Of a stretch of DNA of 64,000 nt, positions 46,490 through 64,000 are shown in pieces. Each line of letters begins with the position of its first letter. Positions within the stretch are counted from its first letter, which is position 1. The DNA is from Streptomyces sp. 3214.6. GTDB taxonomy: Bacteria; Actinomycetota; Actinomycetes; Streptomycetales; Streptomycetaceae. The DNA lies in assembly GCF_900129855.1 (NCBI RefSeq), contig NZ_LT670819.1, positions 372,001 through 436,000 on the forward strand. The letters run 5' to 3'. The notes below the pieces were generated by a model. The model was not told the DNA's origin, ran no database searches, and saw only the letters and a program-made list of their open reading frames with translations. A program made the translations under genes and the position numbers.

Positions 46490-46560
46490 GTAGTTTTCCC
46501 TTGCGTGGGGTCGGGGAAACGAGGAGTGACAGGAGCCAGGTCCGTCAGCCTCAGGGCTGC

Positions 46561-47327: not shown

Positions 47328-50300
47328 TCAGCGGGAGTCGAGGGTGCCCGTGAGGACGGCGGTGACGAGTTCGGTGCGGGAGCGCTTTCCGGTGCGGGCA
47401 AGCAGCCGGGACAGGCGTCCGACGACCGCGTCCTCGTTCAGTCGCAGGATGGTGGCGATCTGGCGGGTGGTGAGCTGTTCGGCGAGCAGGGTGGCGAGCA
47501 GGTGGTCGTTCTCGGCAGTGGCCTGCTTGCGGCCGGGGATGGTGAGTCCGGCCTCGCGCAGCAAGGTCCTGGTGTGGAAGCGCCACAGGGCGGCACCGGT
47601 CATGCCGAACAGTTCGTATGCCTCGTACAGGGGCTTGCCCGGGGCCGCACCCCCGTCGGCGGCTTCCAGGAGGGTGGTCGCCGTCTCGAAGGGCAGGCCG
47701 CGGGAGCGGGCCAGGTTCACCGCCTCGCGCAGGTGGTCGCCGGCGGTGTCGGGGGCCTCCTGGCGCAGGACCCGGGCCGAGGCCAGCAGGTACCTGAGCT
47801 GTGCCCGTCCGCTGCCCGTGCGGGAGGCGACCTGCCCCAGGCTTTCCAGGCAGGTCGCCGCCTCGGCGGTGCGTCCGGCCTCGACTGTCACCTCGGCCAG
47901 CAGGGCCCACAGCTCCTCTGTGCCGTAGATCTGGTCGTGCTCCCGTGCAGCGGCGAGCCCGCGGCGCAGTGTTTTCTCGGCTGCGTCCATGTCGCCGAGG
48001 GCCATGAGCACTTCTGCTTCTGATGCGTTCAGGGCGCACTGCGGCGGACTCGTGCCGGGGCCGCGCATTTCCTCGACGATCTGCAGGGCGCTGGTGACGC
48101 GGCCCCGGGCGAGGAGGATGGCCGCGGTCCGCGCGGGCATCAGAGAGTTGTCCGACACCGGGGTGGACTGGATCTCGCTGTTGGCCAGCAGTCGGCGGGC
48201 TGACTCCAATGCCTGATCCCACCGGCCCGTTAGGTGGTCGAAGAGGAACTGGCCGAGCGGGGGCAGCATTTCTACGGTCAGGCCGGCGGTCTCCAGGAGG
48301 TTGTTGGCTGCGTTGAGGTCGTAGCTGGTGAGCAGGTCGTCGAACGTGCCGCTCGCCAGCGAGTACACCTTGCCGGGGGGCAGCTCGGGGGCGCCGTGCA
48401 TGGCCAGTTCGCGCCGGTAGAGTTCTGGTCGGCCCATGGCCAGGTCGGCCAGGGCCCTGGCCAGGGCGGGCGCCGCACGTGCGCGTGGGCTGGTGGTCCA
48501 CACGGTTTCGGTCTGCTGGAGCAGATTGGCTGCCTCCTTCCATCGTGAGAGGTGACACAGGGCCAGGGACTGGCCGCTCACCTTGGCGAGGGCGGGCACT
48601 GGCAGTCCGTCCCACCAGTGAGCGGTGGCGAGCCTGGACATCGTGGTCCAGTCACGTTGGTTGGCCGTGACCGCCACGACCAGGTAGGCGGCCTCCTGCA
48701 GGTCGAGGTCGCTCAGCGCAGGTCCCGGGTTACGCAGCAGCGATTCCCCGGCGGCCCGTCCCGTGGCGTAGTCGCAGGCCAGGTAGGCGGTCGTCCCGTA
48801 CTGCTGGAGGACGAGATCGCGAGCGTCGGCGTGCTCGGTCAGGTCACTGGCGGCCCGGAGCCACCGCAGGGCCCGCCCGTCATCGTTGCCGGGCCTCATC
48901 CGCCGTGCGGCAGCCGTCAGTTCGGCCACCGCACGCTCCCGGTCGACCAGGCTGCCCGCGTCCGCGACCCGGTCTGCCTGGTAGGCCGCCGCGTCCTTCT
49001 CGTCGAGAAGACCCGGCGCCGGGGGGATCATATGTCCGGGGTGTTCCGAGTCCGCGCCCTTCCAGAGGACTCCGACCGCCGTGGCGGACAACCGACTGCG
49101 GTCCACCGGGCTCAGCCGCTCCCGAAGGGTGTGCGCTGTCAGTGGAAGACGGAAGGTCCACCCGCGCACCGTGGTTGCGTCCGGTCCGGGCTGTTCCTCG
49201 ATGATGTCCGCCTCGATCAGGTGGCGGACAACGTCGTAGGTAGCGTCGGCGGACAGGCCGGCCCATGCCGCTGTCAGCGGAAGGGCCGGCCGGCCAAGCG
49301 GCCACAGGATGCTCAGCGCCGCGGCCACTGCACGACACGGCTCGCCCAGCGCGTCCACTGCTGTGACGAACCGGTCGTCGTCGGGCAGCACCGGTACCGA
49401 CGTCCTCGCGCCAAGGAAGGCGTGGCCGTCGGCGACCCGGATCCCGTCCTGGCGAGTCCAGCCTGCGAGCAGGGCGTCGACTGCTCCCGGGATGCCATGG
49501 GTCAACTCGCCTACCTGCCGGGCGAGGAAGGCGTCGGGCTTTGCCCGCAACCACCGCGCGACCAGCGCGGTGACGTCATCCGGTCCCAGGGAGGACAGCT
49601 CCACCGTGCGGGCCCCCTCGATATCGGACAGCCGCTCCAGGAGCCCGGCCGGACCGTCGCAGCCTGGTGCCCGGGCCTCCCCGGCCTTCCGTCCATGGCG
49701 TGAGGTGCCCAAGCCGACGGCATCCGGCGTGCCCTCTCTCATACGGACTGGGCCCGATGCGACGTGCCGCACTCCGGACACCACCAGCCGGACACCGGGC
49801 GCGAACCGCGAGAAGTCGATCCGGCACAGCACGGCCAGGGAGTCGGGATCGGCATGCTGAACGTCGTCGACCAGGATGGTGAGCGGCGTGGCCTGGGTGA
49901 GGGAAGCGCGAAGCAATGCGTGCATCGTTGTGGAGTCACGCTGGTCGACGGCGGCCAGCGCTCGAGCAACCAACTTTCCGGCCGGCCGCTGCCGTGGCGG
50001 GGCGGATCGGTGCTCTTCGAGTGCAATGACCAGCCGCAGCGCCAGTAGCAGAGGCCGTTCACCGTCGCCTCGGACACTGTCCACCACGTGCAGGGCAGTT
50101 CCCTGTGTGCGCAGTCGCTCGCCGACCGCGTTCAGGAACGCACTGCGGCCCACGCCGCGTTCGCCGCGCACGAGCACCAGGCGGGGGCCGTCAGGGTCGC
50201 TCAGGAGGTCGTGGACCTGTTCCAACTCGCGCTCGCGGCCAAGCAGACCGTCGTTGGTGCGGTCCAGGCGCGCGGCCGTACCCCAGCGGATCAGTTCGTC

Positions 50301-50333
50301 GGTGTCCGACCACGCAGCCACTGTGCCGTACAT
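47328..50333 (-). CDS. LAL-type (large ATP-binding) LuxR regulator
   Basis: A 1001-residue regulator. The N-terminal AAA-type ATPase has LLGRERELEQVHDLL and a degenerate Walker A RGERGVGRSAF, with ILVDDVQHAD as Walker B. A long TPR-like helical middle region follows (about 350-900). At the C-terminus is a LuxR-type helix-turn-helix, AEQLTTRQIATILRLNEDAVVGRLSRLL, followed by ARTGKRSRTELV. In streptomycetes such proteins are usually pathway-specific activators of secondary metabolism. It is divergent from a second LAL gene across 244 bp, and both lie at the downstream end of the peptide-synthetase operon. I saw no TTA codon. Confidence 0.9.
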   Translation of the reverse strand: MYGTVAAWSDTDELIRWGTAARLDRTNDGLLGRERELEQVHDLLSDPDGPRLVLVRGERGVGRSAFLNAVGERLRTQGTALHVVDSVRGDGERPLLLALRLVIALEEHRSAPPRQRPAGKLVARALAAVDQRDSTTMHALLRASLTQATPLTILVDDVQHADPDSLAVLCRIDFSRFAPGVRLVVSGVRHVASGPVRMREGTPDAVGLGTSRHGRKAGEARAPGCDGPAGLLERLSDIEGARTVELSSLGPDDVTALVARWLRAKPDAFLARQVGELTHGIPGAVDALLAGWTRQDGIRVADGHAFLGARTSVPVLPDDDRFVTAVDALGEPCRAVAAALSILWPLGRPALPLTAAWAGLSADATYDVVRHLIEADIIEEQPGPDATTVRGWTFRLPLTAHTLRERLSPVDRSRLSATAVGVLWKGADSEHPGHMIPPAPGLLDEKDAAAYQADRVADAGSLVDRERAVAELTAAARRMRPGNDDGRALRWLRAASDLTEHADARDLVLQQYGTTAYLACDYATGRAAGESLLRNPGPALSDLDLQEAAYLVVAVTANQRDWTTMSRLATAHWWDGLPVPALAKVSGQSLALCHLSRWKEAANLLQQTETVWTTSPRARAAPALARALADLAMGRPELYRRELAMHGAPELPPGKVYSLASGTFDDLLTSYDLNAANNLLETAGLTVEMLPPLGQFLFDHLTGRWDQALESARRLLANSEIQSTPVSDNSLMPARTAAILLARGRVTSALQIVEEMRGPGTSPPQCALNASEAEVLMALGDMDAAEKTLRRGLAAAREHDQIYGTEELWALLAEVTVEAGRTAEAATCLESLGQVASRTGSGRAQLRYLLASARVLRQEAPDTAGDHLREAVNLARSRGLPFETATTLLEAADGGAAPGKPLYEAYELFGMTGAALWRFHTRTLLREAGLTIPGRKQATAENDHLLATLLAEQLTTRQIATILRLNEDAVVGRLSRLLARTGKRSRTELVTAVLTGTLDSR

Positions 50334-50577: not shown

Positions 50578-53430
50578 ATGCGGCAACAACGCGGAGCGGT
50601 CATCGGCAGAGACGGCGCAGTCCGCGAGATAGTGGAGGCCCTGCGCGCCACGGGTGAAGCGGCCCGTGTGCTGCTGGTCACTGCAGAGGCCGGGATGGGC
50701 AAAACCGCTGTACTGGAGCATGCGCGGCGTGTGGCAGCCCAGGACGGCGCTGCGGTGATGAGGCTCGGCTGGGAAGACGAACACGCCGAGGACACGGCCG
50801 ACGCGATCGTCCTGGACGCAGGCTGCGGCCTGATCGTCGAGGACCCCGACGGCTGCCTGCCACCCCTCGCCACAGCCGGTCGCGCACAGGTGCGCGGCGC
50901 CGCGCGGCAGGGTGAGTTGAGCAGGCTGTCCGCCTTCTCCGCCGCACTGCTGGAGGCATCCCGCCAAACCCCGTTCGCGCTGGTCGCCGACGGCGTCGAG
51001 CGGATGCCACAGCGCAGTGCCAGCGCTTTGGCGCTGCTCCTGCGGATCTTCCGCCCGCGCGGCATACCCGTGGTGATGGCCGGCCGGCCGTGGCCCACGA
51101 CGGACCCCGGCCGCGCCGGGCTGACGGCCGCGGCCGACCAGATGCTCGAACTGCCCACACTGCAGCCTGCCGACGTCGCCACGCTCGTCGACGTCCACGT
51201 CACCCGGCGGTTCGGTCGTCCGGCCGAACCGGCGCTGGCGGAGGCAGTGTCGCGGGCGCTGGGCGCGCTGGCGGGCAACCCCCGCGCCGTGCTCTCAGTG
51301 CTCGACGCACTGGACGAGCAGGACCTGGTGGAACTCGACGGCCTGTTGTGCCTCACGCTCCCCGAAAAGCGGCTGCGCCTGAGCGCCGGGACGGCCGAGC
51401 TGCTCCGGTCCGCCTTGCCCGATACGCCCGCGGACCACAGGGCACTCGAGGCGGCGATCGTCACCGCCCGTGTGCTGGACCACGCCGAAGTGCACATCGA
51501 CGATGCGTTCAGGATGACGCCGTCGGCCGGCGACCGAGCCCTTGAACACGCACTGAACCGCCTGATCACGGACAGGATCCTGACCGCGGACCCGCAGGGC
51601 CGCCTGTCATTCGCCGTCCCGGCGCTCGCGGCGGCCTTACGGACCCTGCCCATCCAGCGCGACGTGCAGGGCAACTCTGCCCGGTACGTCGCACAGTTGA
51701 CGGACAGGCTCGGTCCGGAAGCCACCGGCCGTGGCTACCCGAGGCTGGCCGATCGCGTCGCAGCCTCCGGCCCGCGCCTGGACGACACCCTCGCGGTACC
51801 GCTGCTGCTGGCCGCGGCCCGCGAGGAGACCAGGACCAACTGGCCCCGATCGGCCCGCGCCTACGCAGCCGCGCTGCACCGGCTCACGCCACAGGACCGT
51901 CACACCGCTGATGTGCTTCACGAGGCGAGCAGCCTCAGCCTGCGGCACGGCGACCACGAAGGGCTCCTGAAGCTCGGCCAGCCTCTGCTCGCCCTCCTCG
52001 ACCGACCGCACACCGAACACACCGAGGGCGTCGAGAAACCGGCCGGCCTGTCGAGCATTGCCGCCGCATGGGTGTGGGCAGCCCTTCACGAACACCGAGC
52101 CGCTCGCGCCGATAGCATCCATCTTCGCTTAGGCAAGGTCGCCGGCCGGTTTCCCGCCGCGGCCGGGCTTGCGGCACTGGGCGGCCTCTACGGCATCGGC
52201 CCGCTGACGGTTCGGCCGACGGAGGACTCACGCCACATGCTGGACACCTCCGGTCCCGGACACCGGCGCATGCCGCTGCCCCAGCCCACCGAACTCCGCC
52301 TGATGACCGCCGCGGTCGGCAGCCACACCGAACTGAGCCGCGCGCGGCAGCACATGCCCCCCGACGCCGTCGACGACCACACCCTGGACCAGCTGCGCAG
52401 CGCGGCCGCATACGCAGACCTGGCCGGCGCTCTCGCGGCAGTCCTCGGCGACCGGTATGTCGCGGCACCCGAGGGCATCGCCGTCCAGTACCGGGGCATG
52501 GTGCGCGACTACCTGTCAGGGGATTGGGACGCCGCTCTGGCGGCCGCCCGCCGCATCGAGGTGCGTAGCCGCACCCACGCGGCGGCAGGCACCCCGCACC
52601 TCCCACGGGCGCTGGCCGCGGAGATCCACTGCGCGCGCGGGGACGTCGCACGCGCCACAACGTGGCTCGACCTGGTCCCCGACACCCTCACTCATCCCCT
52701 GGTCGCCCGGGCGCGGCTGGCGGTCCGGTACTGGTCGGGCCGACGAGAGGAGGCGCTGGAGGAAGCCTGGCACGACGCTCGGCAGGCACGAAAGAACGGC
52801 CAGCTCGCCGGTGTCGAGCGGCTGCTGCTGCGCATCCTGTCGCTCGCCGCCCACTCGGATCAGCCGCACACGGTCCAACAGGCCCTGGAGGAAGTGGAAA
52901 CCCTGCACGAGGAGGCAGCCACCCCCATGACCCACGAGGCCCTCCTTCTCGCACGCGGCATCGCGAACCACGACGCGGACAGCGCGCTGACCGCCCACCG
53001 GTTGATCAAGCTCCGAGGCGACATACACCTGAGCGTCATCTGCTGCCTGTGCCTGACACGTGTCGCCGACGACCCCCGGCGCTGGCTGACCGAGGCCGTA
53101 GGCAACGCTCACACCCTCGGCCTGGGAGGCCGCTTCCGCACCGCAGTCACCCGTGTCGCGCGGCAGCGCAACATCCCCGTACCGAGACTCCGCCAAGGCC
53201 ACCAGAAGCTGACCGAACTCGACATCAGGCTGGTGCGCATGGTCGCTGACGGCGCGAGCAACCGGCAGATCGCCGCAGAACTCGCCTGCAGTCCCAAAAC
53301 GGTGGAACAGCGCCTGACACGACTGTTCCAGCGCACAGGCTCCCGCTCCCGGAGGGAACTCACCGCCGCCTGGCTCAACGGAAGCCTCACCCAGACCACC
53401 TCCGCCCCCTCCAGCCTGGACGACCACTGA
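50578..53430 (+). CDS. LAL-type LuxR regulator with two TTA codons
   Basis: A 950-residue regulator. N-terminal VIGRDGAVREIV with Walker A TAEAGMGKTA and Walker B FALVADGVERM, a helical TPR-like centre, and a C-terminal LuxR helix-turn-helix: ELDIRLVRMVADGASNRQIAAELACSPKTVEQRLTRLF in frame. Codons 354 (51637-51639) and 518 (52129-52131) are TTA, so translation would depend on the bldA tRNA in Streptomyces. It is convergent with the peptide-synthetase gene ending at 53518 and is the best candidate for the cluster's activator. Divergent from the other LAL gene. Confidence 0.92.
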   Translation: MRQQRGAVIGRDGAVREIVEALRATGEAARVLLVTAEAGMGKTAVLEHARRVAAQDGAAVMRLGWEDEHAEDTADAIVLDAGCGLIVEDPDGCLPPLATAGRAQVRGAARQGELSRLSAFSAALLEASRQTPFALVADGVERMPQRSASALALLLRIFRPRGIPVVMAGRPWPTTDPGRAGLTAAADQMLELPTLQPADVATLVDVHVTRRFGRPAEPALAEAVSRALGALAGNPRAVLSVLDALDEQDLVELDGLLCLTLPEKRLRLSAGTAELLRSALPDTPADHRALEAAIVTARVLDHAEVHIDDAFRMTPSAGDRALEHALNRLITDRILTADPQGRLSFAVPALAAALRTLPIQRDVQGNSARYVAQLTDRLGPEATGRGYPRLADRVAASGPRLDDTLAVPLLLAAAREETRTNWPRSARAYAAALHRLTPQDRHTADVLHEASSLSLRHGDHEGLLKLGQPLLALLDRPHTEHTEGVEKPAGLSSIAAAWVWAALHEHRAARADSIHLRLGKVAGRFPAAAGLAALGGLYGIGPLTVRPTEDSRHMLDTSGPGHRRMPLPQPTELRLMTAAVGSHTELSRARQHMPPDAVDDHTLDQLRSAAAYADLAGALAAVLGDRYVAAPEGIAVQYRGMVRDYLSGDWDAALAAARRIEVRSRTHAAAGTPHLPRALAAEIHCARGDVARATTWLDLVPDTLTHPLVARARLAVRYWSGRREEALEEAWHDARQARKNGQLAGVERLLLRILSLAAHSDQPHTVQQALEEVETLHEEAATPMTHEALLLARGIANHDADSALTAHRLIKLRGDIHLSVICCLCLTRVADDPRRWLTEAVGNAHTLGLGGRFRTAVTRVARQRNIPVPRLRQGHQKLTELDIRLVRMVADGASNRQIAAELACSPKTVEQRLTRLFQRTGSRSRRELTAAWLNGSLTQTTSAPSSLDDH

Positions 53431-53517: not shown

Positions 53518-56500
53518 TCAGCCGACTGGTTGGTCGGCCCCCGCCGCCACGATCAGTCGGGCGGCGTTGGTGACTGAGGAGTCCATGAAGAACTCGGCAA
53601 TCGGGACTTGCACCGTGAACACACTCTTGAGGCGGGAAACGAGCCGCAGCGCGGCCAGGGAGTGGAAACCCAGCGCAAAGATGTCCGTCCGAAGGTCGAT
53701 CGTCGGTACTTTGAGTACCTCACAGTAGACCTCCGCGACCTTGACTTCGAGCTCGCTGCCCTGCGCTTCCTCGGGGACGACACGTTCGCGGCTCTGCAGC
53801 AGCGCGAGCAAGGCTGCTTGGTCAACCTTGCCATGCGAGGTGAGCGGGAACCGTTCAACTACTGAGATGTGAGCCGGAACCAGGTGTGGGGGAAGCTGGG
53901 TACGAACGTACGCCGCGACAGTTGCCTCGTCGGCGTACGGACCGATCAGGAACGCGATCAGCTCAAGCTCGGCCGCTGGATCAGCCTCGGTGCGCCGAGG
54001 CACGACCACGCTGCGCACCACGTCCGGATGGCCGTCGAGTACCGATTCGATCTCGGCGAGCTCGACCCGATGGCCGCGCAGTTTGAGCTGACGGTCCACG
54101 CGGCCGAGAAATTCGAGGTCACCTTCGGTAGTCCATCGGCCTTGGTCGCCGGTGCGATACATACGTGTGCCCGGCTCGGCCGCGAAGGGGTCCGCCAAGA
54201 AGCGCTCGGCGGTCTGCTCGGGCCGGTTGAGCAAGCCGTCGGAGACGCCGGGGCCGGCCAGGTAGATCTCCCCTGCCACGCCGCGTCCAACCGGTGCGAG
54301 CAAAGCGTCGAGCACGTAGACGGAGGCGTGCGGCATTGGTCGTCCGATCGGCAGCGCCTCGCGGTCGAAGTCAGCACCGGGCTGATAGGTCGTGCTGGTC
54401 ACCGCCGTTTCGGTGAGCCCATAGACATTGGTGAGCGGAATCCCGAAGTCCAACCAGCGCTGGTAGACCTCGATCGGCGCGCGTTCGCCGCCGACCAGCA
54501 CTCGCCGCATGGTTTGCGGAATGGGGACAACAGCCGGGTCGATCAGGCGCACTACTTCGATCCAGTAGGCGGTGGGGAGCTCACATATAGTGATCTCGCG
54601 CTCTCCGAGGAGGTGCAGCAGTTCCGCCGGGCCGGTCCGGCCGAGCACGCCATCGAAAAAGACGACGCAGCCACCGGCCAGCCAGGTGGGGAAGAACTCC
54701 TCGACATGTACGTCGAAGGTCATCGCGGCGAGCTGCAGCATCCTGTCTTCCGGGCCCAGATCGAACGTGTCCACCGCGGCACGGGTGAACGCAGTCAGGT
54801 TGACATGGGTGACGAGGGTGCCCTTGGGCACACCCGTCGAGCCGGAGGTGAACGGGACATACGCGACCTGACGGCCTGTCACAGCGATGCCCTTGAGATC
54901 TTCACCGCTCTGGGCCTCGATCGAGGAAGCAACCGCCGGATCGTCGAGGGCGAGCACATGGTGGGCCCCGGCAAAGTCCGCGGCAAAGTCCACGACCGTG
55001 AGCACCAAGCGGGGCGCAGTCTCGGCGAGGACATGGGCCTTGCGGCTGCCGGGCGCGTCCGGAGCCACAGGGACGTAGGCTCCGCCCGCCTTCAGTACGG
55101 CGAGCACGGCGGACGGCCAGGAGGAGCCATGGGGCAAGGCGAGCGCCACCGGCTCCCCCGCGCGAAGACCTAGCTGACGCAGATGCCGCGCGAGCCGGTT
55201 GGCCTGGCTGTTGAGCTGTGCGTAACTGACTGGCGTACCGTCTTCACGCTCGATCGCCGGCGCATCTGGGCTCTGTCGGACCCGTCGCTCGAACAGCGCG
55301 TGCAGGGTGGCCAGCTCGTCCCCCGGCACGGGCCGACCAGTGAGCTCCCGATCGGGCTCGGCGTCGGTCGACGTGCGAAGCGCTCCCAGCGGGAACTCGG
55401 GGTGGGACGCGGCCTCGCCGAGCAGCACCAGGTAGCTCTCGGCCATTGCCTCGATGGTGCCCGCGTCGAACAGCTCACTGTCGTATTCGAACTGAAGGCT
55501 CAGCTCCCCCAGAGCGTCCACAGCGCTGAGACTGAGACGGAACCGGGACCCGCCGTTGGACACCTCGTAGAGCTCCGTCACCGCGCAGCCCGGCAGCGTG
55601 GCCTCGAACTCCGTGGACTGCTCGAAGGAGAACACCGCCTGGAAGAGCGGGGCCTCACGCGAAGTGCGTTTGGAGTCGACCCGTTTGACAAGCTCGGTGA
55701 ATGGCGCGTCTTGTGAGGAGAGCGCGTCGAAGGTACTCAGCTGGAGTTCGCGGACCAGGGAGGCGAAGGACACGTTCGCGTCCAGCCGCAGTCGCAACGG
55801 CATTGTGTTGGCGAACAGCCCGATGAGCGACTGGTACTCGAGCCGGGTCCGGCCGGCCAGAGGCGTTCCGATCAGCAGGTCGTCCTGACGGGTGTAGCGG
55901 GCCAGCAGCACGCCCCACACACCGCCGAGCATCGCGAAGGGCGTGACCCCGAGCCGCTTGGCGCAGGCGTAGGTATCGGCCCGAAGCTGCTCTGGTACCA
56001 CTGTCGTGAACTCATCCCCCCGGTATTCCCGGGAGGCTCCTGAACGGTGATCGACCGGCAGTGCAAGGATCGTCGTCGCACCCGCCAATTCCCGAGCCCA
56101 CGCGTCGAGCACGTCGCCGTACCCGCCGTCCTCGGTGATGCGCCGCTGTTCGGCGGCGAAGTCGCGGTACTGCATGGTGAGGTCAGGCAGATCGGGCTCA
56201 CCGCCCGTGTGCCATGCGGTGTAGAGCGCGACGAACTCGGTCCAGAACAGACGCAGCGACCAACCGTCCGCAACGATGTGGTGCATGTTGAGGAAGAACG
56301 CGTAGGCGTCATCCTCAAGACGTAGCGCAGCAGCCCGCAGAAGCGGGCCGTGCACAAGGTCGAAGGGCTCGCAAGCGGCGGTCTCGACGAACCCACGCCA
56401 CTCGTCGGGCCGGGAGCGAAAGTCGAACACAGGCAGCGCGAAGGGCTGCGGCGGATCTGTGATCAGGTACAGTTCACCGTTTTCCTCGCCCACCCGGGAG

Positions 56501-56736
56501 CGCAGCACCTCATGCCGACGCACGATCTCGGTCACGCAGCGCGCGGCGAGCTCCGTGTCCAACGTGCCACGCAGACGGATCACCATAGGTATTCCGTAAA
56601 CGCTGCGGCCCGGGGCGAGTTGTTCAGCAATCCAGATCTGCTCCTGCAGGAGGGAGATCCTCTCGATCTGTCGGTTGCCCATGGGTGCTCCGGTCGGGTG
56701 CGTGGCCTTCGGAGTAGTGGTTGACTCGGTCATCAT
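53518..56736 (-). CDS. Nonribosomal peptide synthetase module, C-A-PCP
   Basis: A 1072-residue single module. The condensation domain (about 25-455) has the intact motif MHHIVADGWS at 151-160. The adenylation domain (about 485-960) has FTSGSTGVPKG, NVYGLTETAVTST, YRTGDQGRW, VDRQLKLRGHRVELAEIE and the core Lys in SHGKVDQ. The carrier domain has ALGFHSLAAL with the phosphopantetheine Ser near 1026. A4 reads FDVHVEEFF, so the amino-group-binding Asp is present; the code by eye is about D-V-E-E-L-G-V-V-T-K, not one I can assign. No thioesterase follows. AGGAAGAG precedes the ATG. It is the last gene of the operon, 23 bp after the dehydrogenase gene. Confidence 0.93.
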   Translation of the reverse strand: MMTESTTTPKATHPTGAPMGNRQIERISLLQEQIWIAEQLAPGRSVYGIPMVIRLRGTLDTELAARCVTEIVRRHEVLRSRVGEENGELYLITDPPQPFALPVFDFRSRPDEWRGFVETAACEPFDLVHGPLLRAAALRLEDDAYAFFLNMHHIVADGWSLRLFWTEFVALYTAWHTGGEPDLPDLTMQYRDFAAEQRRITEDGGYGDVLDAWARELAGATTILALPVDHRSGASREYRGDEFTTVVPEQLRADTYACAKRLGVTPFAMLGGVWGVLLARYTRQDDLLIGTPLAGRTRLEYQSLIGLFANTMPLRLRLDANVSFASLVRELQLSTFDALSSQDAPFTELVKRVDSKRTSREAPLFQAVFSFEQSTEFEATLPGCAVTELYEVSNGGSRFRLSLSAVDALGELSLQFEYDSELFDAGTIEAMAESYLVLLGEAASHPEFPLGALRTSTDAEPDRELTGRPVPGDELATLHALFERRVRQSPDAPAIEREDGTPVSYAQLNSQANRLARHLRQLGLRAGEPVALALPHGSSWPSAVLAVLKAGGAYVPVAPDAPGSRKAHVLAETAPRLVLTVVDFAADFAGAHHVLALDDPAVASSIEAQSGEDLKGIAVTGRQVAYVPFTSGSTGVPKGTLVTHVNLTAFTRAAVDTFDLGPEDRMLQLAAMTFDVHVEEFFPTWLAGGCVVFFDGVLGRTGPAELLHLLGEREITICELPTAYWIEVVRLIDPAVVPIPQTMRRVLVGGERAPIEVYQRWLDFGIPLTNVYGLTETAVTSTTYQPGADFDREALPIGRPMPHASVYVLDALLAPVGRGVAGEIYLAGPGVSDGLLNRPEQTAERFLADPFAAEPGTRMYRTGDQGRWTTEGDLEFLGRVDRQLKLRGHRVELAEIESVLDGHPDVVRSVVVPRRTEADPAAELELIAFLIGPYADEATVAAYVRTQLPPHLVPAHISVVERFPLTSHGKVDQAALLALLQSRERVVPEEAQGSELEVKVAEVYCEVLKVPTIDLRTDIFALGFHSLAALRLVSRLKSVFTVQVPIAEFFMDSSVTNAARLIVAAGADQPVG

Positions 56737-56759
56737 GACCCGCTCTTCCTGACAGTCGG

Positions 56760-57677
56760 CTAGTAACCGAGTTCCCGGTCGACCAGGCCGATCGGCTCAA
56801 GGCCGTTCGCCAGTCGACGAATGTTGCGCCGGACCAGGTCGACGAAGGGTCCGAGTGCGTGATCCAGATCGCCCGCGCAGTGCGCGGTGATCACACAGGT
56901 GGGAAGGGACCACAGCGGGTGCTCCGGAGGAAGCGGCTCGGGGTCGGTGACGTCCAGGCCGGCGCCGGCAATCCACCCGGAGGTCAGCGCACGAACGAGG
57001 TCGTCTGTGATGACAAGCCCGCCGCGCGCCACGTTCACCAGGCACGCGTCCCGACGCATGGATCTGAGTCTGGCTGCGTCGATCAGCCCGGCCGTGTCCG
57101 CGGTCAGCGGCGCCGCGAGGAAGACCACACGGGCCTCGGGCAGCCATTCGTCGAGGCGATCGGGCGTGGCGACCTCGGCGCCCGCCATCGGGGCGCCGCT
57201 GCGGCACACCACCTTGGGGCGGACCCTGAACGGGCGCAGCAGTGCGAGCAGTGCCCGGGCAACCGCGCCGCCGCCCACCACAAGGACCTCGGCGTTCGTC
57301 AGCCCGATGGCGGGGCGCGGCAGCCACGCGCCGGCCCTCACGGAGGCAGTGCCCTGTCGCAGCACGGTCAGCGCGAGCATGAGGGCGTGTTCAGCTACCA
57401 GCTCGGACTGGACGCCCACGGCCCGGCTCCAGCGGATCCGCTGATCCATGAGCGGCAGGTAGCTTTCGACGCCGGTGCTCGCCAGCTGAACCCAGCGCAC
57501 CGACGGCGCGCACTCCAGTGCGGCTGCCAGCGCCGAGGGCCGCTCGCCGGTCCAGATCAAGCCCTGAGCCCGGGCCAGCGGAGCCAGTCGAACGCCTGAG
57601 TCATGCAGCGCTGTCATGAGATCGGCGGGCGCCGGCTCCGGAAGCACTGCCAGTGGTAGGTCGGGAAGCATGGTCAC
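56760..57677 (-). CDS. D-isomer-specific 2-hydroxyacid dehydrogenase
   Basis: A 305-residue NAD-dependent dehydrogenase. The cofactor motif is VLVVGGGAVARALLAL; catalytic Arg is in VNVARGGLV, Glu in DVTDPEPLPPEHPLW, and His in VITAHCAGD. The enzyme interconverts a 2-oxo acid and a D-2-hydroxy acid. The GTG at 57677 overlaps the stop of the A-PCP gene (GTGA), so the two are translationally coupled, suggesting it makes that protein's substrate. An ATG two codons later is an alternative start. Confidence 0.9.
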   Translation of the reverse strand: MTMLPDLPLAVLPEPAPADLMTALHDSGVRLAPLARAQGLIWTGERPSALAAALECAPSVRWVQLASTGVESYLPLMDQRIRWSRAVGVQSELVAEHALMLALTVLRQGTASVRAGAWLPRPAIGLTNAEVLVVGGGAVARALLALLRPFRVRPKVVCRSGAPMAGAEVATPDRLDEWLPEARVVFLAAPLTADTAGLIDAARLRSMRRDACLVNVARGGLVITDDLVRALTSGWIAGAGLDVTDPEPLPPEHPLWSLPTCVITAHCAGDLDHALGPFVDLVRRNIRRLANGLEPIGLVDRELGY

Positions 57678-59503
57678 CAGCCACTGCCCGGCTTACCCGC
57701 CGCCGCGACGTCTGCCGTCGCGTCGGCCAGCGCTGCCACTCCGCGTACCGAATACGCGGCGAAGACCTCGCGGACACCGAGGCTTATGCCGAAGTGTTTG
57801 CGGATCCAGCTGATCAGCCGCAACATGAACAGCGAATCCCCTCCCAGGTCAAGCAGGTTGTCGAGCACACCGATCTCGTCGAGTCCCAGGAGCTCCGCCG
57901 CGGCGGCGCCGATGCGCCGCTCGATTTCACCTGCCGGCGGCACGAACTCGGTGGGCAAGTCGGGCCGACGCTTCGGTGGCTGCGGAAGCATCGCGTGGTC
58001 GATTTTCCGATGCATCGTCAGCGGAAATTCGTCCAGCCGGATCAGCGCTGAAGGGATCAGATGGGCCGGCAGTTCGTCGGCGAGGAAGGCACGCAGCTCA
58101 CCGCTGCTCACCGTGTCCCGGTCAGCAGTCACGTAGCCGATCAGACACTGCTCACCCGACGCGTCTCGACCAGTGGTGACCAGGGCTTGGCGCACCGCCG
58201 GGTGCCGGTCGAGCGCAGCCTCGATCTCGCCTGGTTCGACGCGATAACCACGCACCTTGACTTGCTGGTCGCTGCGTCCAAGGAATTGCAGCCGACCGTC
58301 GGGAAGACGGCGTACCCGATCGCCGGTGCGGTACAACCTGGCCCCCGGAATCCCCGAGTAGCGGTCGGCGACGAACCTCTCCGCGGTGACGTCGGGTCTG
58401 CCCAGGTAACCGCGTGCCAGCGAGTCACCACCAATGAGCAGCTCGCCCTCGGCATCCGCGGGAACGAGTTCGAGCCGCTCGTCGACGACGAACATTCGGG
58501 TTCCGGCGATGGCATCGCCGATGGACAACACCCCGTCCTTGGGTGCTTGTCCGGGCGGCACGCTCCAGTATGCCGCGGTCGCAGTGGTCTCGGTCGGCCC
58601 GTAGACGTGCACCAGCGGAAGGCGGAAGCGGTTCCACTGCTGGACGGCTTCGGGCATGGCGCGGTCTCCTCCCATGACGATCAGCCGCAGCGACGGGGGC
58701 AGTGCCCCGCCGGTGTCCACGAGGTGGCGAACCAGCAGGTGCCAGTGCGCGGTCTGCATCTCCAGCAGCGTGACGTCGTGCGCGGTGAGGAAGTCGAGCA
58801 GGGTCTCCACCGGGGAGAGCGCAACCCGATCGGTCGGGAACACGCTTGTCCCGCCCTGCACGAGTGGGGGGAACAGCTCCTCGAGTGAGGCGGAGAATGC
58901 GGCGGCGGCCAGCATCAGGTAGCGATCACCCGGCCCCATGCCGAACTCGGCACTCGCGGCGGCTGCGAGATTCGCCAGGCCGAGATGGGTGATCATGACG
59001 CCTTTGGGCGCTCCGGTGGAACCTGAGGTGTAGATGACGCAGGCCAGATCGTCCGGCGCGGCTACGGGGGCGCCCGGACGGGGAGGCAAGCGCCCCCGGT
59101 CCGGCGCAAGCGTCGTGACGGGCAAGCTGGTTGGACTCCCCTGCGCTCCGTCTACAATGAGAATCTTGATACCGGAGTCCGCCGCGAGGAAACTCTTGCG
59201 CTGGTCGGGGTAGTCCGGGTCGATAGGCACGTAAGCCGCTCTCGCACGCAGCACGCCGAGAATCGCGACAAGCAGGTCAGCGGAGTGACGCATCATCACG
59301 CCGACGCGATCGCCCGGAAGCACTCCCGCCTCCGCCAGGCGCGCCGCCATGTGCTCGGCTTCGGCGGCGAGTTCGGCGTAGGTCAGCGCCCGCTGTGAAT
59401 CCTCGGTGGCGCAAGCGTGCGGCGTCACCCTTGAGTGCTGCTCAAGCAGGTGCGGGATGAGCTTCGGCGCGTCGTTACGCGCTGATTGAACGTCGGCGTT
59501 CAC
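57674..59503 (-). CDS. NRPS loading-type A-PCP didomain lacking the amino-binding Asp
   Basis: A 609-residue protein with an adenylation domain (about 15-505) and one carrier domain. Motifs: IYTSGSTGAPKGVMITH, HVYGPTETTATAAY, YRTGDRVRR, DQQVKVRGYRVEPGEIE, core Lys in MHRKIDH, and carrier Ser in DLGGDSLFML (about 557). A4 reads FSASLEELF where amino-acid-activating domains have FDxSxxE: the Asp that binds the alpha-amino group is Ser. The code by eye is S-A-E-E-V-G-V-A-T-K. This implies a substrate without a free alpha-amino group, such as a hydroxy or keto acid. No condensation domain is present, as in starter modules. Coupled at both ends to the aminotransferase and dehydrogenase genes. Confidence 0.92.
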   Translation of the reverse strand: MNADVQSARNDAPKLIPHLLEQHSRVTPHACATEDSQRALTYAELAAEAEHMAARLAEAGVLPGDRVGVMMRHSADLLVAILGVLRARAAYVPIDPDYPDQRKSFLAADSGIKILIVDGAQGSPTSLPVTTLAPDRGRLPPRPGAPVAAPDDLACVIYTSGSTGAPKGVMITHLGLANLAAAASAEFGMGPGDRYLMLAAAAFSASLEELFPPLVQGGTSVFPTDRVALSPVETLLDFLTAHDVTLLEMQTAHWHLLVRHLVDTGGALPPSLRLIVMGGDRAMPEAVQQWNRFRLPLVHVYGPTETTATAAYWSVPPGQAPKDGVLSIGDAIAGTRMFVVDERLELVPADAEGELLIGGDSLARGYLGRPDVTAERFVADRYSGIPGARLYRTGDRVRRLPDGRLQFLGRSDQQVKVRGYRVEPGEIEAALDRHPAVRQALVTTGRDASGEQCLIGYVTADRDTVSSGELRAFLADELPAHLIPSALIRLDEFPLTMHRKIDHAMLPQPPKRRPDLPTEFVPPAGEIERRIGAAAAELLGLDEIGVLDNLLDLGGDSLFMLRLISWIRKHFGISLGVREVFAAYSVRGVAALADATADVAAAGKPGSGW

Positions 59504-60705
59504 GCAGCAGACTCCTCAGGGGTGGGCGACATCGACGTCAAGGGGCCTGCGGCGGCGTCAACCTGCTCTGCCATCAGCTTCACAATGGGTGTGACGCCAC
59601 TGCCCGGCAGCACCGGGGCGCCGAGGGCTGCGAACCCGGTCTCAAGCGCGGCCAGCGCGGTAACCAGGTCGAGCGGGTCGGCGTGGCCGCAGTGGCCGAT
59701 CCGCACCACTTGGTCGGCCAGTTCCCCGTTGCCGGTAGCCAGCTGGACGCCTGTGTGCTCGACTACCGCATCGACGAGAAGTTGCGCCCCTACTCCGGGC
59801 GGTGTGAACGCGGCCGTTACGATGCCGTTGCGCGCCACTTCTGGGGTCAGCAGCCGGAGTCCGAGGCCGCGCAGGCCCGCTCTGGCCATCCGGCCGAGCT
59901 CCGAATGCCGCCGGTGGCGCCGCTCCATGCCTTCAGCGAGTACCTGTTCGAGCGCCGCAGACAACTGGAGCAGCACGCCGACCGCCGGCGTCCAGGGGGT
60001 ACGCGGGATGGAGTGGTTCAGGCTGTCACGCGTGATCGTCCAGTCGAAGTAGTACCGCAGATGCCTGGCCTTGGCGTGCCGGCGCCAGGCGCGCTCACTG
60101 ACCGAGACGAAAGAGACCCCTGGCGGCGCCATCAGCGCCTTCTGACTCCCGCCGACCACGACGTCCAACCCCCACGCGTCGGCCTGCATTTCGCAGCCGC
60201 CGACCCCGGAGGCCGAGTCCACTATCGTCAGCACACTGCGGGTTGCGCGCCCGAAGGCCTCAAGGTCGGTGACGACGCCTGTGGAGGTCTCGCAGTGTAC
60301 GACGATCGCCGCGACGATTTGCGAGTCGGCCGCCAGGCAGGCTTCGACAACTGCAGGGTCCGGCTCGCAACCCCACGCGACGTTGAGCACGACGGTCTCC
60401 AGGCCATAAGCGCGGCATAGCCCCACCCAGCGCCTTCCGAAGGCACCGTTGTCCACCACGAGCACCTTTTCCCCCGGGCTGAAGAGGTTCTGCACCGCGC
60501 TCTCGAACGCACCGGTGGTGCTTGACGAGAAGATCAGCACGTCCCCCGCGGTACCCAGCACATGCCTGAGCCCGTCGATGATTCGTGTGAATGTGCGCGC
60601 GAAGTCCACGGTGCGCTCGTCGACCATGGGATGCGTCGCCGCCGCGATGACCGCGGGCGGCAGCGGGGTCGGACCGGGTATAGCCAATCTGTCCTTGTAA
60701 ATCAT
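59500..60705 (-). CDS. Class V PLP-dependent aminotransferase (alanine-glyoxylate/serine-pyruvate type)
   Basis: A 401-residue aminotransferase. PGPTPLPPAV near the start and SSSTTGAFESAVQNLF bind the cofactor phosphate. VHCETSTGVV and VDSASGVGG carry the PLP-contacting residues, and the Schiff-base Lys is in GGSQKALMAPPG. It moves an amino group between a small amino acid and a 2-oxo acid or aldehyde. AGGAAG directly precedes the ATG. The stop overlaps the A-PCP gene's GTG by 4 bp. With the dehydrogenase gene it suggests that one 2-oxo acid is turned either into an amino acid or into a hydroxy acid for the peptide. Confidence 0.9.
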   Translation of the reverse strand: MIYKDRLAIPGPTPLPPAVIAAATHPMVDERTVDFARTFTRIIDGLRHVLGTAGDVLIFSSSTTGAFESAVQNLFSPGEKVLVVDNGAFGRRWVGLCRAYGLETVVLNVAWGCEPDPAVVEACLAADSQIVAAIVVHCETSTGVVTDLEAFGRATRSVLTIVDSASGVGGCEMQADAWGLDVVVGGSQKALMAPPGVSFVSVSERAWRRHAKARHLRYYFDWTITRDSLNHSIPRTPWTPAVGVLLQLSAALEQVLAEGMERRHRRHSELGRMARAGLRGLGLRLLTPEVARNGIVTAAFTPPGVGAQLLVDAVVEHTGVQLATGNGELADQVVRIGHCGHADPLDLVTALAALETGFAALGAPVLPGSGVTPIVKLMAEQVDAAAGPLTSMSPTPEESAA

Positions 60706-60771
60706 CTTCCTGATTCCTTAGTGCCGCGGTGGTCCGGCTTCGTCAAAGGCTCGTCTGCAGTCGAGTACCGC

Positions 60772-62112
60772 TCAGCTGACCGGCGCCCCACTGCCGCCAT
60801 CTGGCACGTGCGGTTCGATGGCGCACCCGCGCAGCCCGGCATCGTCCGGCTCGTTGTGCACCTGTAGCTCTGGTTGCTCAACCCTGGTCACGGCAAGGGC
60901 GAACAGTGCCGTGCCCACCACCGCGACCACAGCACAGCCCACCAGCACCGGGCGTAGGCCGAACAGGATGCCCAGTGGGCCGGCTACGGCGAAGCCGACC
61001 GGCTGGGCGATCTCCGAGGCCACCAAATCGAAGGCGGCCACCCGGCCGAGTACCGCCCTCGGTACGGCGCGCTGCATGAGGGTCTGGAAGAACACTCCTT
61101 GCAGGCCGATCGCGCAGCCGGAGAGCAGTGCGGCACCCGCCACCACCACCGTCGGCACGCCAGAGCCGAGGGCCAACGTTTCGAAGACGATCAGCGGTGG
61201 CAGCCACGCCATGAAGACCACCGGTCGCTTCGGCTTGATCCGCCCGGCGGTGAACTGCGCGCAGACCACGCCGATGGTCATGCAGGTGCCGATGACACCC
61301 CAAGCTGCGGCACCGCCCAGATAGGTGTCGGCCACCAACGGGCCGAGGACCGCGAGGGGAGCCAGCAGGACCAGCGAGAACAACGTCCACTGCAAGGTGA
61401 GCAGCCACAGCCAGGGGCGCATTCGAAACTCCCGCCAGCCTTCCCCCAGCTGCGCGAGCGTCCCGCCTTCGCGCTCCGGCTCGGCTTCGCCCCCAGCGGG
61501 GATCTTGGCGAATATGAGACAAAGAGTGATGAACAACATCAGCACGCTCTCCACCAGGAAAGCGGCTCCCGAACCGTACGCCGCCACGACCACTCCTGCC
61601 GCCGCAGGGGCCGCCGTAAAAGCCAGCGAGGAAAAAGTGCCGATCAACGCATTGGCCTCGTCCAGGTCATCTTTCGCAACGACGTCCGGCATGATCGCCG
61701 CGCTGGCCGGACCGAATAGCGCGTCAGCGCCGCCGTATACGACTGCCAGAGCGAAGAACCAGCCGAGGGTCGCAGTATGCGTGAGCAGTCCTATCGACAA
61801 GGTCGCCGCCGCGACCAGGCGTACGATCGACGAAGCGATGAGCAACGCGGCACGCGGAAAGCGGTCCGCCGCGACGCCGGCAAACAGCGACAAGACGAGC
61901 GAAACCGCCGCCTGAACTCCGAGGACAAGGCCGAGGTCACTCGCAGAACCAGTGGTGTGGAGGACACCGAAGCTCTCCGCAACTGGCAGGAAGCCGTTGG
62001 CCATGCCGGAGCCCAGCCGGGCGGCCAATAAGCAGGCGAAGTGTCGGTCGGTCAGCAGCCTTCTGCGTTTGCCTCGGCGTCCTCGTTCGCCGGAGACCAC
62101 TACATCGCTCAT
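60772..62112 (-). CDS. MFS exporter (antibiotic-efflux type)
   Basis: A 446-residue protein with about 12 membrane helices. The cytoplasmic loop motif VAADRFPRAALLIASSIVR after helix 2 and the central loop rich in Glu/Gly match the MFS_3/enterobactin-exporter-like group. It stands between the MbtH gene and the aminotransferase in the peptide operon, so export of the finished product or self-protection is the likely role. Confidence 0.9.
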   Translation of the reverse strand: MSDVVVSGERGRRGKRRRLLTDRHFACLLAARLGSGMANGFLPVAESFGVLHTTGSASDLGLVLGVQAAVSLVLSLFAGVAADRFPRAALLIASSIVRLVAAATLSIGLLTHTATLGWFFALAVVYGGADALFGPASAAIMPDVVAKDDLDEANALIGTFSSLAFTAAPAAAGVVVAAYGSGAAFLVESVLMLFITLCLIFAKIPAGGEAEPEREGGTLAQLGEGWREFRMRPWLWLLTLQWTLFSLVLLAPLAVLGPLVADTYLGGAAAWGVIGTCMTIGVVCAQFTAGRIKPKRPVVFMAWLPPLIVFETLALGSGVPTVVVAGAALLSGCAIGLQGVFFQTLMQRAVPRAVLGRVAAFDLVASEIAQPVGFAVAGPLGILFGLRPVLVGCAVVAVVGTALFALAVTRVEQPELQVHNEPDDAGLRGCAIEPHVPDGGSGAPVS

Positions 62113-62212
62113 TGCGCCTCTTTCCGCGCGTGCTGGTTTCAGGTCCCGGCACGAGGGCTAGGTGATGGTTCCTTTGGGTCCGGTCGGCCGGCGGTGCCAC
62201 ACCGAGGGGCCC

Positions 62213-62422
62213 TCAAGAGGTTGTCGCCTCGACCAGGGACCTGGGCCGCATGTCCGTCCAGTTCCGTTTCACGTACTCCAGGCAGTCCTCTCGCCCAGCT
62301 TCGCCGTGTACTACGGTCCAGCCCTTGGGCACAGTGATGGCGGCGGGCCACAACGAGTGTTGTCCCTCAGCATTGACCAGCACCAGGTACACGCCGTCCT
62401 GGTCCTCGAATGGATTCGCCAC
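62213..62422 (-). CDS. mbtH: MbtH-like protein
   Basis: A 69-residue protein with the diagnostic family sequence [33 protein letters not shown] and [17 protein letters not shown], including the conserved Trp residues. MbtH proteins bind adenylation domains and are needed for their folding or activity. I chose the GTG at 62422 (three codons inside the longest frame) because the GGGGAG site is then 8 nt away. It should partner one or both adenylation domains of this operon. Confidence 0.95.
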
Positions 62423-62457
62423 TGCTTTCACTCCCCTAGGTAAGTTGTCATCATTCG

Positions 62458-62619
62458 TCAGCGGCCGCTCAACTCGATATGCGTGCCGAATTCACGGGCA
62501 ATAAGAAACGTGTGTACCCCGCCATTGGTATCTTCCGGGGCGGGCTGTACGATCAGCGCCTCGCGCCGCAAACGGCTCGGGCTGGTTCGCCGCGACCACC
62601 GGAACCTGCGTGTGGTCAT
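62458..62619 (-). CDS. 53-residue ORF inside the peptide operon
   Basis: Between the condensation-domain gene and mbtH, a same-strand frame starts [20 protein letters not shown], very basic, and ends [20 protein letters not shown] then ELSGR. Its codons include AT-rich choices (TTT, CTT, ATT) unusual for the region. No family recognised. It could be a real small protein of the pathway, a remnant of a larger domain after the condensation domain, or chance. The ribosome site is weak. Confidence 0.4.
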
Positions 62620-62635
62620 AGGACTCGATCGAACA

Positions 62636-63997
62636 TCAGCGCTTGATGCACTCCCCCAGCACGTCGACTGTGCTGATCGGCGCATCCGGGTCCGCGGCAA
62701 GAGCGGCCAGCATCCGCCGGTAACCGTCCGCCACGCGCTGTGCGGACTCCCGTTCGAACAGGTCGAGCCGGTACTCCAGGAACGCATCCATCCCAGCCGG
62801 CTCCTTGTACGGGCCGAAGTTCTCCCGCAGGCTCAAGGCCAAGTCGAACATGGAGCTGCCGCCGTCGATGTCCAATGGCACGTCGGTCAATCCGTCGAAC
62901 TTGAGCCCGGCGTCGGCGTTGTTCTCCAGGGTGAACATGACCTGGAAAAGCGGGTGACGGGTCCGCGAGCGGGCAGGATTGAGTGCCCTGACCAGGCGAT
63001 CGAAGGGAATGTCCTGGTTGTCGTAGGCATCAAGGGCGACGGTCTGGACCCGCTTGACCAGGTCTCGCAGACTCGGGTCGCCGGACACTTCAACGCGGAA
63101 TACCAGCATATTGACGAAGTACCCGACGAGTTCGGTCAGCGCATCATCCATGCGGCCAGCCACGGGCGAGCCGATCGGAATGTCGGTGCCCGCACCGAGC
63201 TTGCTCAGCAGCGCCGCAAACCCGGCCTGCAATACCATGAACATGGTCGCATTTTCGGTGCGGGCGACCTCGGCCAGTGCTGTATGGAGATCGACGTCGA
63301 GGGTGAACTCGATCGCGCCCCCGGCGAAGTCGGACATCGGTCGGCGCGGGTGATCCACCGGCAACCGCAGTTCCTCGGGCATGCCGTCGAGCACCGAACG
63401 CCAGTGCTTGAGCTGTCTCGACGCCAGGCTGTCCGGGTCCTCCTCGCGGCCCAGCAACCGCCTCTGCCAGACTGCGTAGTCGGCGTACTGGACAGGCAGC
63501 GGCGGCATATTCGGCTCGGCACCACGGCGCCGCGCCGCGTAGGCCCGGGCGAGGTCTCGGGTGAGCGGCCCCAACGACCAACCATCGCTGACGATGTGGT
63601 GCATCGATATAAGCAACACGTGCTCCTGCGGCCCCAGCGCGAACAGCCATGCCCGAAGGGGCAGGTCGCGCACAAGGTCGAACGGGCGTTCCGAGGCCTC
63701 GTGCATCGCCTGATGCAGCTCTTCCTCGGCAAGCTCCTTGTACTCCAGTCTCACTGCGCATTCTGAGATATCCAGGACAACCTGGTGCGGCACGCCTTCA
63801 CCGTCCCGGATTACCGTGCGAAGCGATTCATGTCGCTGCACGACGTCTCGCAATGCCTCCTCCAGGGCTGTGCTGTCCAGCTGCCCCGTCAGCCGCGAAG
63901 CGAGCTGCATGGTGTATATCGAGCTGCCCGGATTCATCTGATGGATGAACCACAGTCCGAGCTGCCCAAACGACAGAGGGATCATGACTGGTCCCAC
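62636..63997 (-). CDS. Stand-alone NRPS condensation domain (5' end at window edge uncertain)
   Basis: A 453-residue condensation domain from IPLSFGQLGLWFIHQ (motif C1) through the catalytic SMHHIVSDGWS (about 132-141), GYFVNMLVFRVEV and the late HPLFQVMFTLEN. It ends right after the domain (TVDVLGECIKR), without adenylation or carrier domains. The frame is still open at the window's last base. I mark the GTG at 63997, but an ATG four codons in (63985) or an upstream domain outside the window are possible. As a separate protein it could join the two carrier-bound units or release the product by condensation. Confidence 0.85.
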   Translation of the reverse strand: MGPVMIPLSFGQLGLWFIHQMNPGSSIYTMQLASRLTGQLDSTALEEALRDVVQRHESLRTVIRDGEGVPHQVVLDISECAVRLEYKELAEEELHQAMHEASERPFDLVRDLPLRAWLFALGPQEHVLLISMHHIVSDGWSLGPLTRDLARAYAARRRGAEPNMPPLPVQYADYAVWQRRLLGREEDPDSLASRQLKHWRSVLDGMPEELRLPVDHPRRPMSDFAGGAIEFTLDVDLHTALAEVARTENATMFMVLQAGFAALLSKLGAGTDIPIGSPVAGRMDDALTELVGYFVNMLVFRVEVSGDPSLRDLVKRVQTVALDAYDNQDIPFDRLVRALNPARSRTRHPLFQVMFTLENNADAGLKFDGLTDVPLDIDGGSSMFDLALSLRENFGPYKEPAGMDAFLEYRLDLFERESAQRVADGYRRMLAALAADPDAPISTVDVLGECIKR

Positions 63998-64000
63998 ATA

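Follow-up and report, generated by a model that had tools for sequence, protein, structure and literature searches.

We analyzed a 64,000-nt stretch of the genome of Streptomyces sp. 3214.6 (contig NZ_LT670819.1, positions 372,001 to 436,000, or G000:C1:372001-436000, where G000 is the own genome of 9.38 Mb); this whole stretch is referred to as the window, and its numbering is carried on beyond 64000. The window runs into a gene cluster that we interpret, from its sequence, as a hybrid nonribosomal peptide synthetase (NRPS)(-polyketide synthase) cluster in which the loading module begins the chain with a guanidino amino acid in its 2-hydroxy acid form, the parent most likely being capreomycidine. 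We put the probability of this reading at about 0.6. Central to it is a protein with one adenylation (A) domain and one peptidyl carrier protein (PCP) domain, the A-PCP, whose gene overlaps both that of a 2-hydroxyacid dehydrogenase and that of a class V aminotransferase. A preliminary description of the window had given each overlap as 4 bp and had described the genes between 53518 and 64000. Both points were confirmed: these genes follow one another in the order given, each lies on the minus strand, and both junctions read GTGA (Table 1).

Serine Replaces Aspartate at Position 235 of the A-PCP

In the A-PCP, the Ser of the motif FSASLEELF aligns gap-free to the Asp of LgrA A1, ApnA A1, and CmnG. 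Position 235 (PheA numbering) is thus Ser, as previously described, and the alignments show no Asp shifted by one position, the outcome named beforehand as speaking against this assignment. Ser235 is kept in all nine A-PCP orthologs (the own protein and L005-L012; eight from Streptomyces and one from Catenulispora), and among the A domains used for comparison, drawn from 21 further loci, 71/71 have Asp at this position; many of the Bacillus rows in this set are near copies of each other. FSASLEELF was found in 3/394 genomes of the family (own, G925, and G1012) and in 1/394 of the class (own), the own genome being included in both counts; the motif is therefore neither a chance occurrence nor common. 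The catalytic core is otherwise whole, with YTSGSTG, YGPTE (A5), HRKID (A10), and LGGDSL, and the Pfam models AMP-binding and PP-binding both scored above cut-off.

According to the part of PMC11253843 that was consulted, D235 is replaced in domains that activate hydroxy and keto acids. The A-PCP resembles such domains (EnSynA1, engineered TycA, and StsA) in the loss of Asp235 and differs from them in its Ser, since they carry Ala, Gly, or Ile at 235 and take hydrophobic substrates (PMC11253843, same part). As the Asp is also lost in keto-acid domains, the A-PCP might load a 2-oxo acid, with reduction occurring later or on another compound, a logic of the cereulide/valinomycin type. In the keto-acid domain StsA, however, Met replaces a Pro that is conserved in amino-acid domains, and the M415P substitution abolishes activity (PMC11253843). 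The Pro of YGPTE, which we infer to be the equivalent position, is kept in 9/9 Ser235 orthologs and in G925. Moreover, no ketoreductase (KR) domain is among the Pfam hits of the A-PCP, unlike in an A-KR-PCP layout, and the genes for the dehydrogenase and the A-PCP overlap. Loading of a 2-oxo acid thus appears quite improbable.

A Probable Guanidine-Type Binding Pocket

The pocket codes taken from the alignments are S A E A V G V A T for the A-PCP and D V E A L G V V T for the 1072-residue C-A-PCP (C, condensation domain) of the same cluster. The A10 Lys follows both codes (K517, taken from the motif), and V299 and G301 of the A-PCP were placed by alignment against the 1072-residue protein (GGERA/GGDRA). 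The two pockets are the same at E239, A278, G301, V322, and T331, and their main difference lies at 235. Glu239, present in both proteins, occurs in 0/71 comparison domains (one of which is gapped there). A domains of the type DVE...T, with YGLTE or YGVTE, do stand beside VioD homologs in five other genomes, where Glu239 (DVE) domains make up 1/5 of the coded A domains in G792, 1/5 in G830, 1/4 in G902, and 1/1 in both G871 and G893; in G670, the count was 0/2 coded A domains, with another A domain cut by the contig end. The A10 Lys lies in HRKID in 3/3 aligned Ser235 domains (own, Catenulispora, and G925) and in GKVD or GKLD in the 1072-residue and other DVE domains; HRKID is possibly a further adaptation of the Ser235 domains.

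A quick-method tree of the A3-A5 subdomain, built on 119 columns for 70 rows, joined the three Ser235 domains and the seven DVE domains in a single clade, with a Shimodaira-Hasegawa-like approximate likelihood ratio test (SH-aLRT) value of 99 and a stem of 0.75. Searches of the PDB with the pocket stretches returned ApnA A1 (1.3e-19) and then CmnG (1.2e-10) as best matches of the A-PCP, and CmnG (3.5e-16) and then ApnA A1 (1.2e-13) as those of the 1072-residue protein; with longer queries, ApnA A1 ranked 12 and 7, and CmnG ranked 43 and last of 29. As a reverse control, the ApnA A1 stretch was used to rank 70 A domains, and the same ten Ser235 and DVE domains took ranks 1-10.

The consulted part of PMC11253843 describes Glu204 and Ser243 of ApnA A1 as holding substrate orientation and Glu217 of Pls as forming a salt bridge to the Lys epsilon-amino group. 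With ApnA A1 (anabaenopeptin, Arg/Tyr), the A-PCP shares Glu239 and a TAYWH/TAHWH stretch; unlike the A-PCP, ApnA A1 keeps Asp235 and activates amino acids (PMC11253843). Taken together, the codes, the subdomain clade, the ApnA A1 and CmnG matches, and these published residues make the A-PCP look like a basic, guanidine-type pocket minus the amino anchor. The parent of the starter might then also be arginine itself or 3-hydroxyarginine (argininic acid type), with capreomycidine used only by the 1072-residue C-A-PCP. Indeed, it is an Arg/Tyr domain, ApnA A1, that matches the A-PCP pocket best in the PDB and places the pocket family at the top of its ranking, and pocket codes do not tell Arg from capreomycidine. 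This alternative is taken up again below with the genes of G925.

Capreomycidine Genes Accompany the Ser235 Domain

The fold-I pyridoxal phosphate (PLP) enzyme encoded beyond the window scored 498.2 bits against the VioD model TIGR03947 (curated cut-off 390.9), and its counterparts in Catenulispora and G925 scored 491.1 and 493.7. Against the VioC model TIGR03946 (cut-off 418.6), the own oxygenase (401.9) and that of Catenulispora (413.1) fell below the cut-off and that of G925 (431.3) exceeded it. All three passed the GntD model (cut-off 345) with 493.9, 486.6, and 387.5 for own, Catenulispora, and G925, respectively, and arginine beta-hydroxylases top the PDB matches of the own oxygenase. 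Among eight VioD loci scanned, the aminotransferase and dehydrogenase were both present in 2/2 with a Ser235 domain, and no match to either was found in the six without one (ORFs, i.e., open reading frames, of >300 codons; 16-40 kb each).

A Second Cluster Kind in Another Genus

G925 belongs to another genus of the family and also encodes a Ser235 A domain. Within ~11 kb, it carries genes for an aminotransferase (55% identity to own), an A-PCP-C protein (motif FSASLEELFPPL, code SAEAGSIAT, YGPTE kept), a dehydrogenase (56%), and a major facilitator superfamily (MFS) protein, together with VioD-type and VioC-type genes. The trio of aminotransferase, Ser235 A domain, and dehydrogenase thus recurs in a rearranged cluster, and the GTGA overlap of the aminotransferase and A genes is retained. 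Five A domains were found in ~96 kb of G925, and Glu239 is present only in the Ser235 one. If VioC and VioD function in G925, the sole pocket matching their product would, as far as this genome was read, be the Ser235 one. It is mainly because G925 has capreomycidine genes but only a Ser235 basic-type pocket that we prefer capreomycidine over arginine as the parent; with a starter made directly from arginine, the 96 kb of G925 that were read would offer the VioC/VioD product no fitting pocket of the amino-acid type. We therefore regard the arginine-derived starter as unlikely. The G925 region C24 81931-105725 (L070, L071, and L083) also contains two similar A codes (DVFSMCIVY and DVFSACIVY), A domains that lie in separate shorter ORFs, and a thioesterase-like sequence recognized by eye.

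The Aminotransferase and Dehydrogenase

The dehydrogenase scored 143.9 bits against PF02826 and carries the family motifs VNVARGG, DPEPLP, and TAHC, which are also found in Catenulispora; the Glu of the D-P-E-P motif is the usual catalytic Glu in the Arg/Glu/His triad of the family. Among solved structures, the dehydrogenase is closest to a D-2-hydroxyacid dehydrogenase and to glyoxylate reductases, and the aminotransferase to serine-glyoxylate and related glyoxylate-using enzymes. The aminotransferase scored below the BhcA model NF045640 (cut-off 650; own 266.1, G925 320.2), which makes the two proteins class V relatives only. A search of the genus with the dehydrogenase returned 5/392 genomes. 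Two of these are the own genome and that of Streptomyces sp. WAC 01529, which has the cluster; the other three matched at 40-44%, and inspection by eye of the output of a crude ORF picker showed no NRPS in their loci. Relatives of the aminotransferase at 37-39% were found in six other genomes (7/394 including own).

Given their glyoxylate-using relatives, the two enzymes could serve another step, for instance by supplying or recycling glyoxylate or in a route to an amino acid that resembles the serine pathway; phosphoglycerate dehydrogenase and SerC belong to the same two enzyme groups. The Ser235 pocket would then take an acid without an alpha substituent or a beta- or gamma-amino acid, for example of the guanidinobutyrate type. 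However, the three genes stay together in two cluster kinds, no match to the two enzymes was found in ORFs of >300 codons of the six other VioD loci, and the aminotransferase and A genes remain coupled through GTGA. Such a role is distinctly unlikely.

Proposed Pathway

In the pathway that we propose, the VioC/GntD-like enzyme would hydroxylate arginine and the VioD-type synthase would carry out the cyclization. The class V aminotransferase would take off the alpha-amino group, with glyoxylate or pyruvate as the probable acceptor, and the resulting 2-oxo acid would be reduced to the 2-hydroxy acid by the dehydrogenase. The A-PCP would load this acid as the starter, with Glu239 and Thr331 holding the guanidine, as in domains for basic side chains, and with Ser235 standing in for the Asp that would bind an alpha-ammonium group. 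The 1072-residue C-A-PCP would add capreomycidine itself and the 1087-residue C-A-PCP an aromatic-type residue, after which the free-standing C domain would hand the chain to a further PCP for release by a reductase; this order is a predicted one.

The preliminary description had also envisaged a chain started by a hydroxy acid, in its case an unspecified alpha-hydroxy acid joined to one amino acid, with the free-standing C domain releasing or esterifying a small product. The hydroxy-acid starter agrees with the real loss of D235, with the coupled genes, and with the recurrence of the trio in G925. What that version missed is the guanidino side chain, which the basic pocket type and the capreomycidine genes indicate. 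Nor does one amino acid in a small ester match the locus, as a second C-A-PCP, a further A-PCP, and a ketosynthase (KS)-PCP-reductase protein lie beyond 64000, outside the window. In its original form, that proposal is highly improbable.

Several observations weigh against a starter derived from capreomycidine by the two enzymes. The dehydrogenase family usually gives D-hydroxy acids. C domains were compared with 43 references labeled by position (10 epimerization [E] domains, 16 C domains directly after E, and 17 other C domains) plus one unlabeled row. The D-donor (DCL) clade comprised 16/16 after-E references and 3/17 rows labeled L-donor (LCL); the latter three, for which an upstream E domain was perhaps missed, were retained in the set. 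Seven C domains were tested in this way, namely three own domains, three from Catenulispora, and the one after the Ser235 module of G925, placed by a quick tree. Each of them fell outside the DCL clade, so a D-hydroxy acid donor fits poorly; the free-standing condensation protein groups with LCL domains. Further, since the nearest relatives of the two enzymes use glyoxylate or D-2-hydroxyacids, neither predicts a guanidino substrate, and the dehydrogenase of G925 (PF02826, 153.1) has Ala at the Glu of D-P-E-P. CmnG, the solved capreomycidine domain, carries Gln, not Glu, at 239, and with its stretch as query only 6/10 of the Ser235 and DVE pockets reached the top 12 of 70. With this Gln and the untidy ranking of the ten pockets, CmnG is weak as proof of a capreomycidine substrate and was set aside as such.

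Finally, the full-length A-domain trees conflict. The A-PCP and 1072-residue domains were sisters (97/96) in a tree of 61 rows and not sisters in a quick tree of 70 rows. Near-duplicate rows had been removed beforehand (79 to 61 and 84 to 70, with repeats of Bacillus, Catenulispora, and G925 rows dropped for the 70-row trees), and the row L012_C1087, actually a C-A-PCP-reductase protein, was excluded. The kinship of the two pockets therefore rests only on the pocket subdomain tree and the ApnA ranking, and the conflict would fit an exchange of the pocket subdomain.

Later Modules and Release

From its code, the 1072-residue C-A-PCP is predicted to add capreomycidine (or arginine). The 1087-residue C-A-PCP has the A code DASSVAAVC, which resembles the Phe code DAWTVAAVCK (Table 3 in the consulted part of PMC8399532), and hence likely takes an aromatic residue, in a pocket that is roomier at 239. 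The chain is probably released by reduction, for which Streptomyces would use the KS-PCP-reductase protein and Catenulispora a C-A-PCP-reductase protein.

The code of the outer A-PCP, DVWSFSLIE, which we take to resemble Ser codes, has the same core in L029, and six other strains carry a different A domain (FDSSVAGVW). The own protein and that of L029 agree at 96%, the six others at 38-41% over the protein; the end with the PCP stays similar among strains, as does the neighboring KS-PCP-reductase (~93%). As judged from these comparisons, the strain difference is a natural A-domain exchange. The ~1 kb between the outer A-PCP and KS-PCP-reductase genes (G000:C1:447877-448949) holds a type II thioesterase-like fragment (by eye) and a piece of an A domain with PCP; it is mostly absent from L029, and short remnants matching it occur in L032 and L034.

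Conservation of the Cluster

The cluster block is also present in seven named Streptomyces and in Catenulispora pinisilvae. In the seven Streptomyces, nine genes from the oxygenase to the 1072-residue C-A-PCP have 86-97% identity in kept order, and the PLP enzyme and KS-PCP-reductase protein are also present. The P450 is found in 7/7 of them (8/9 genome entries, two entries being one strain) and was not found in Catenulispora at the threshold used. Relative to the own genome, the ~9-kb segment from the P450 to the KS-PCP-reductase is inverted in 6/7 strains (L029-L034), and in L035 its orientation is the same. A second P450 (L030:2882-4114; also L031, L033, and L012) occurs in 3/7 fetched Streptomyces stretches, with 95-96% among these three and 71% to Catenulispora; none was seen in the own 36-kb stretch.

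The Catenulispora block has 51-70% identity to own, and the capreomycidine synthase is present there at 70%. There, the ortholog of the free-standing C protein is the first domain of the C-A-PCP-reductase protein. The second C-A-PCP is without most of the A core and is followed by the full C-A-PCP-reductase (both in L012:482-7054); the PCP of this A-core-deficient protein may be loaded in trans.

Gene Layout

The features of the locus are collected in Table 1. The condensation protein is encoded by a closed ORF with a gap of 263 bp to the preceding gene and is thus free-standing here. Of the three orthologous loci without the LuxR-type regulator, L007 stops short of its position. In the ORF 45638-46801 (minus strand), the C-terminal part resembles an AraC-type regulator (by eye).

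Table 1. Features of the cluster and adjoining genes, in window numbering
Feature	Coordinates	Strand	Remarks
Second large AAA regulator	47328-50333	minus	Present in the same 5/8 loci as the LuxR-type regulator
AAA/STAND LuxR-type regulator, divergent	50578-53430	plus	Adjoins the cluster in 5/8 fetched orthologous loci
C-A-PCP, 1072 aa	53518-56736	minus	A code D V E A L G V V T K; A5 motif YGLTE
2-Hydroxyacid dehydrogenase (D-isomer family), 305 aa	56760-57677	minus	
A-PCP, predicted loading protein, 609 aa	57674-59503	minus	Pocket code S A E A V G V A T K
Class V (fold I) aminotransferase	59500-60705	minus	Serine/alanine-glyoxylate, BhcA, PhnW group
MFS exporter	60772-62112	minus	
MbtH-like protein	62213-62431	minus	
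Free-standing condensation protein	62636-63997	minus	HHxxxDG
Second C-A-PCP, 1087 aa	64261-67524	minus	Outside window
VioC/GntD-like oxygenase	67521-68579	minus	Outside window
Fold-I PLP enzyme	68576-69769	minus	Capreomycidine synthase model passed; outside window
P450	71443-72876		Outside window
Outer A-PCP	73780-75876 (G000:C1:445780-447876)	opposite to minus genes	Outside window
KS-PCP-reductase protein	end at 80440	opposite to minus genes	Outside window

Discussion

The cluster shares with the capreomycidine pathway of viomycin and capreomycin (VioC/CmnC, VioD, and CmnG) an enzyme that passes the VioD model, an oxygenase of the arginine beta-hydroxylase family, and, in the 1072-residue protein, a pocket stretch closest in the PDB to CmnG. 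It differs from that pathway in having Glu239 where CmnG has Gln239 and in its aminotransferase and dehydrogenase, to which six other VioD loci showed no match in ORFs of >300 codons. Discrete NRPS proteins, reductase release, and, in some products, capreomycidine are likewise features of the antipain, chymostatin, and omicsynin clusters as described in the consulted part of PMC12783407. The omicsynin cluster differs in its five NRPS genes, three A domains, AnpI-type arginine cyclase, and ureido link, and that part of PMC12783407 mentions neither a hydroxyacid dehydrogenase nor a class V aminotransferase for these clusters. The ureido-tetrapeptide-aldehyde type (antipain, chymostatin) was considered, in a comparison by description only, and the cluster was not assigned to it.

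No matching cluster was found in the literature searched, and a hydroxy-guanidino building block of peptides, including a capreomycidine-derived one, was not found there among the matches listed. Hydroxy-acid loading by NRPSs is a known kind of logic; the comparisons made here support the guanidino hydroxy acid as the new element, that is, as the unit loaded. More tentatively, and at a little less than an even chance, domains with the code SAExxxxAT (Ser235/Glu239) may be the first recognized loaders of 2-hydroxy-capreomycidine, an alpha-hydroxy acid with a cyclic guanidine, for whose synthesis the pathway would have its own dedicated aminotransferase and reductase. Their pocket would have arisen when a capreomycidine/arginine pocket lost its amino anchor, and they would define an undescribed class of guanidino-hydroxyacyl peptides with at least two cluster kinds.

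If this holds, a single pathway would contain a pair of related guanidine pockets of which only one has the amino-binding Asp, a natural comparison that would allow a direct test of how an A domain switches from amino to hydroxy acids. It would also add a building block and provide a sequence motif for locating more such clusters. A guanidino hydroxyacyl peptide released by a reductase would plausibly be a protease inhibitor or an antibiotic.

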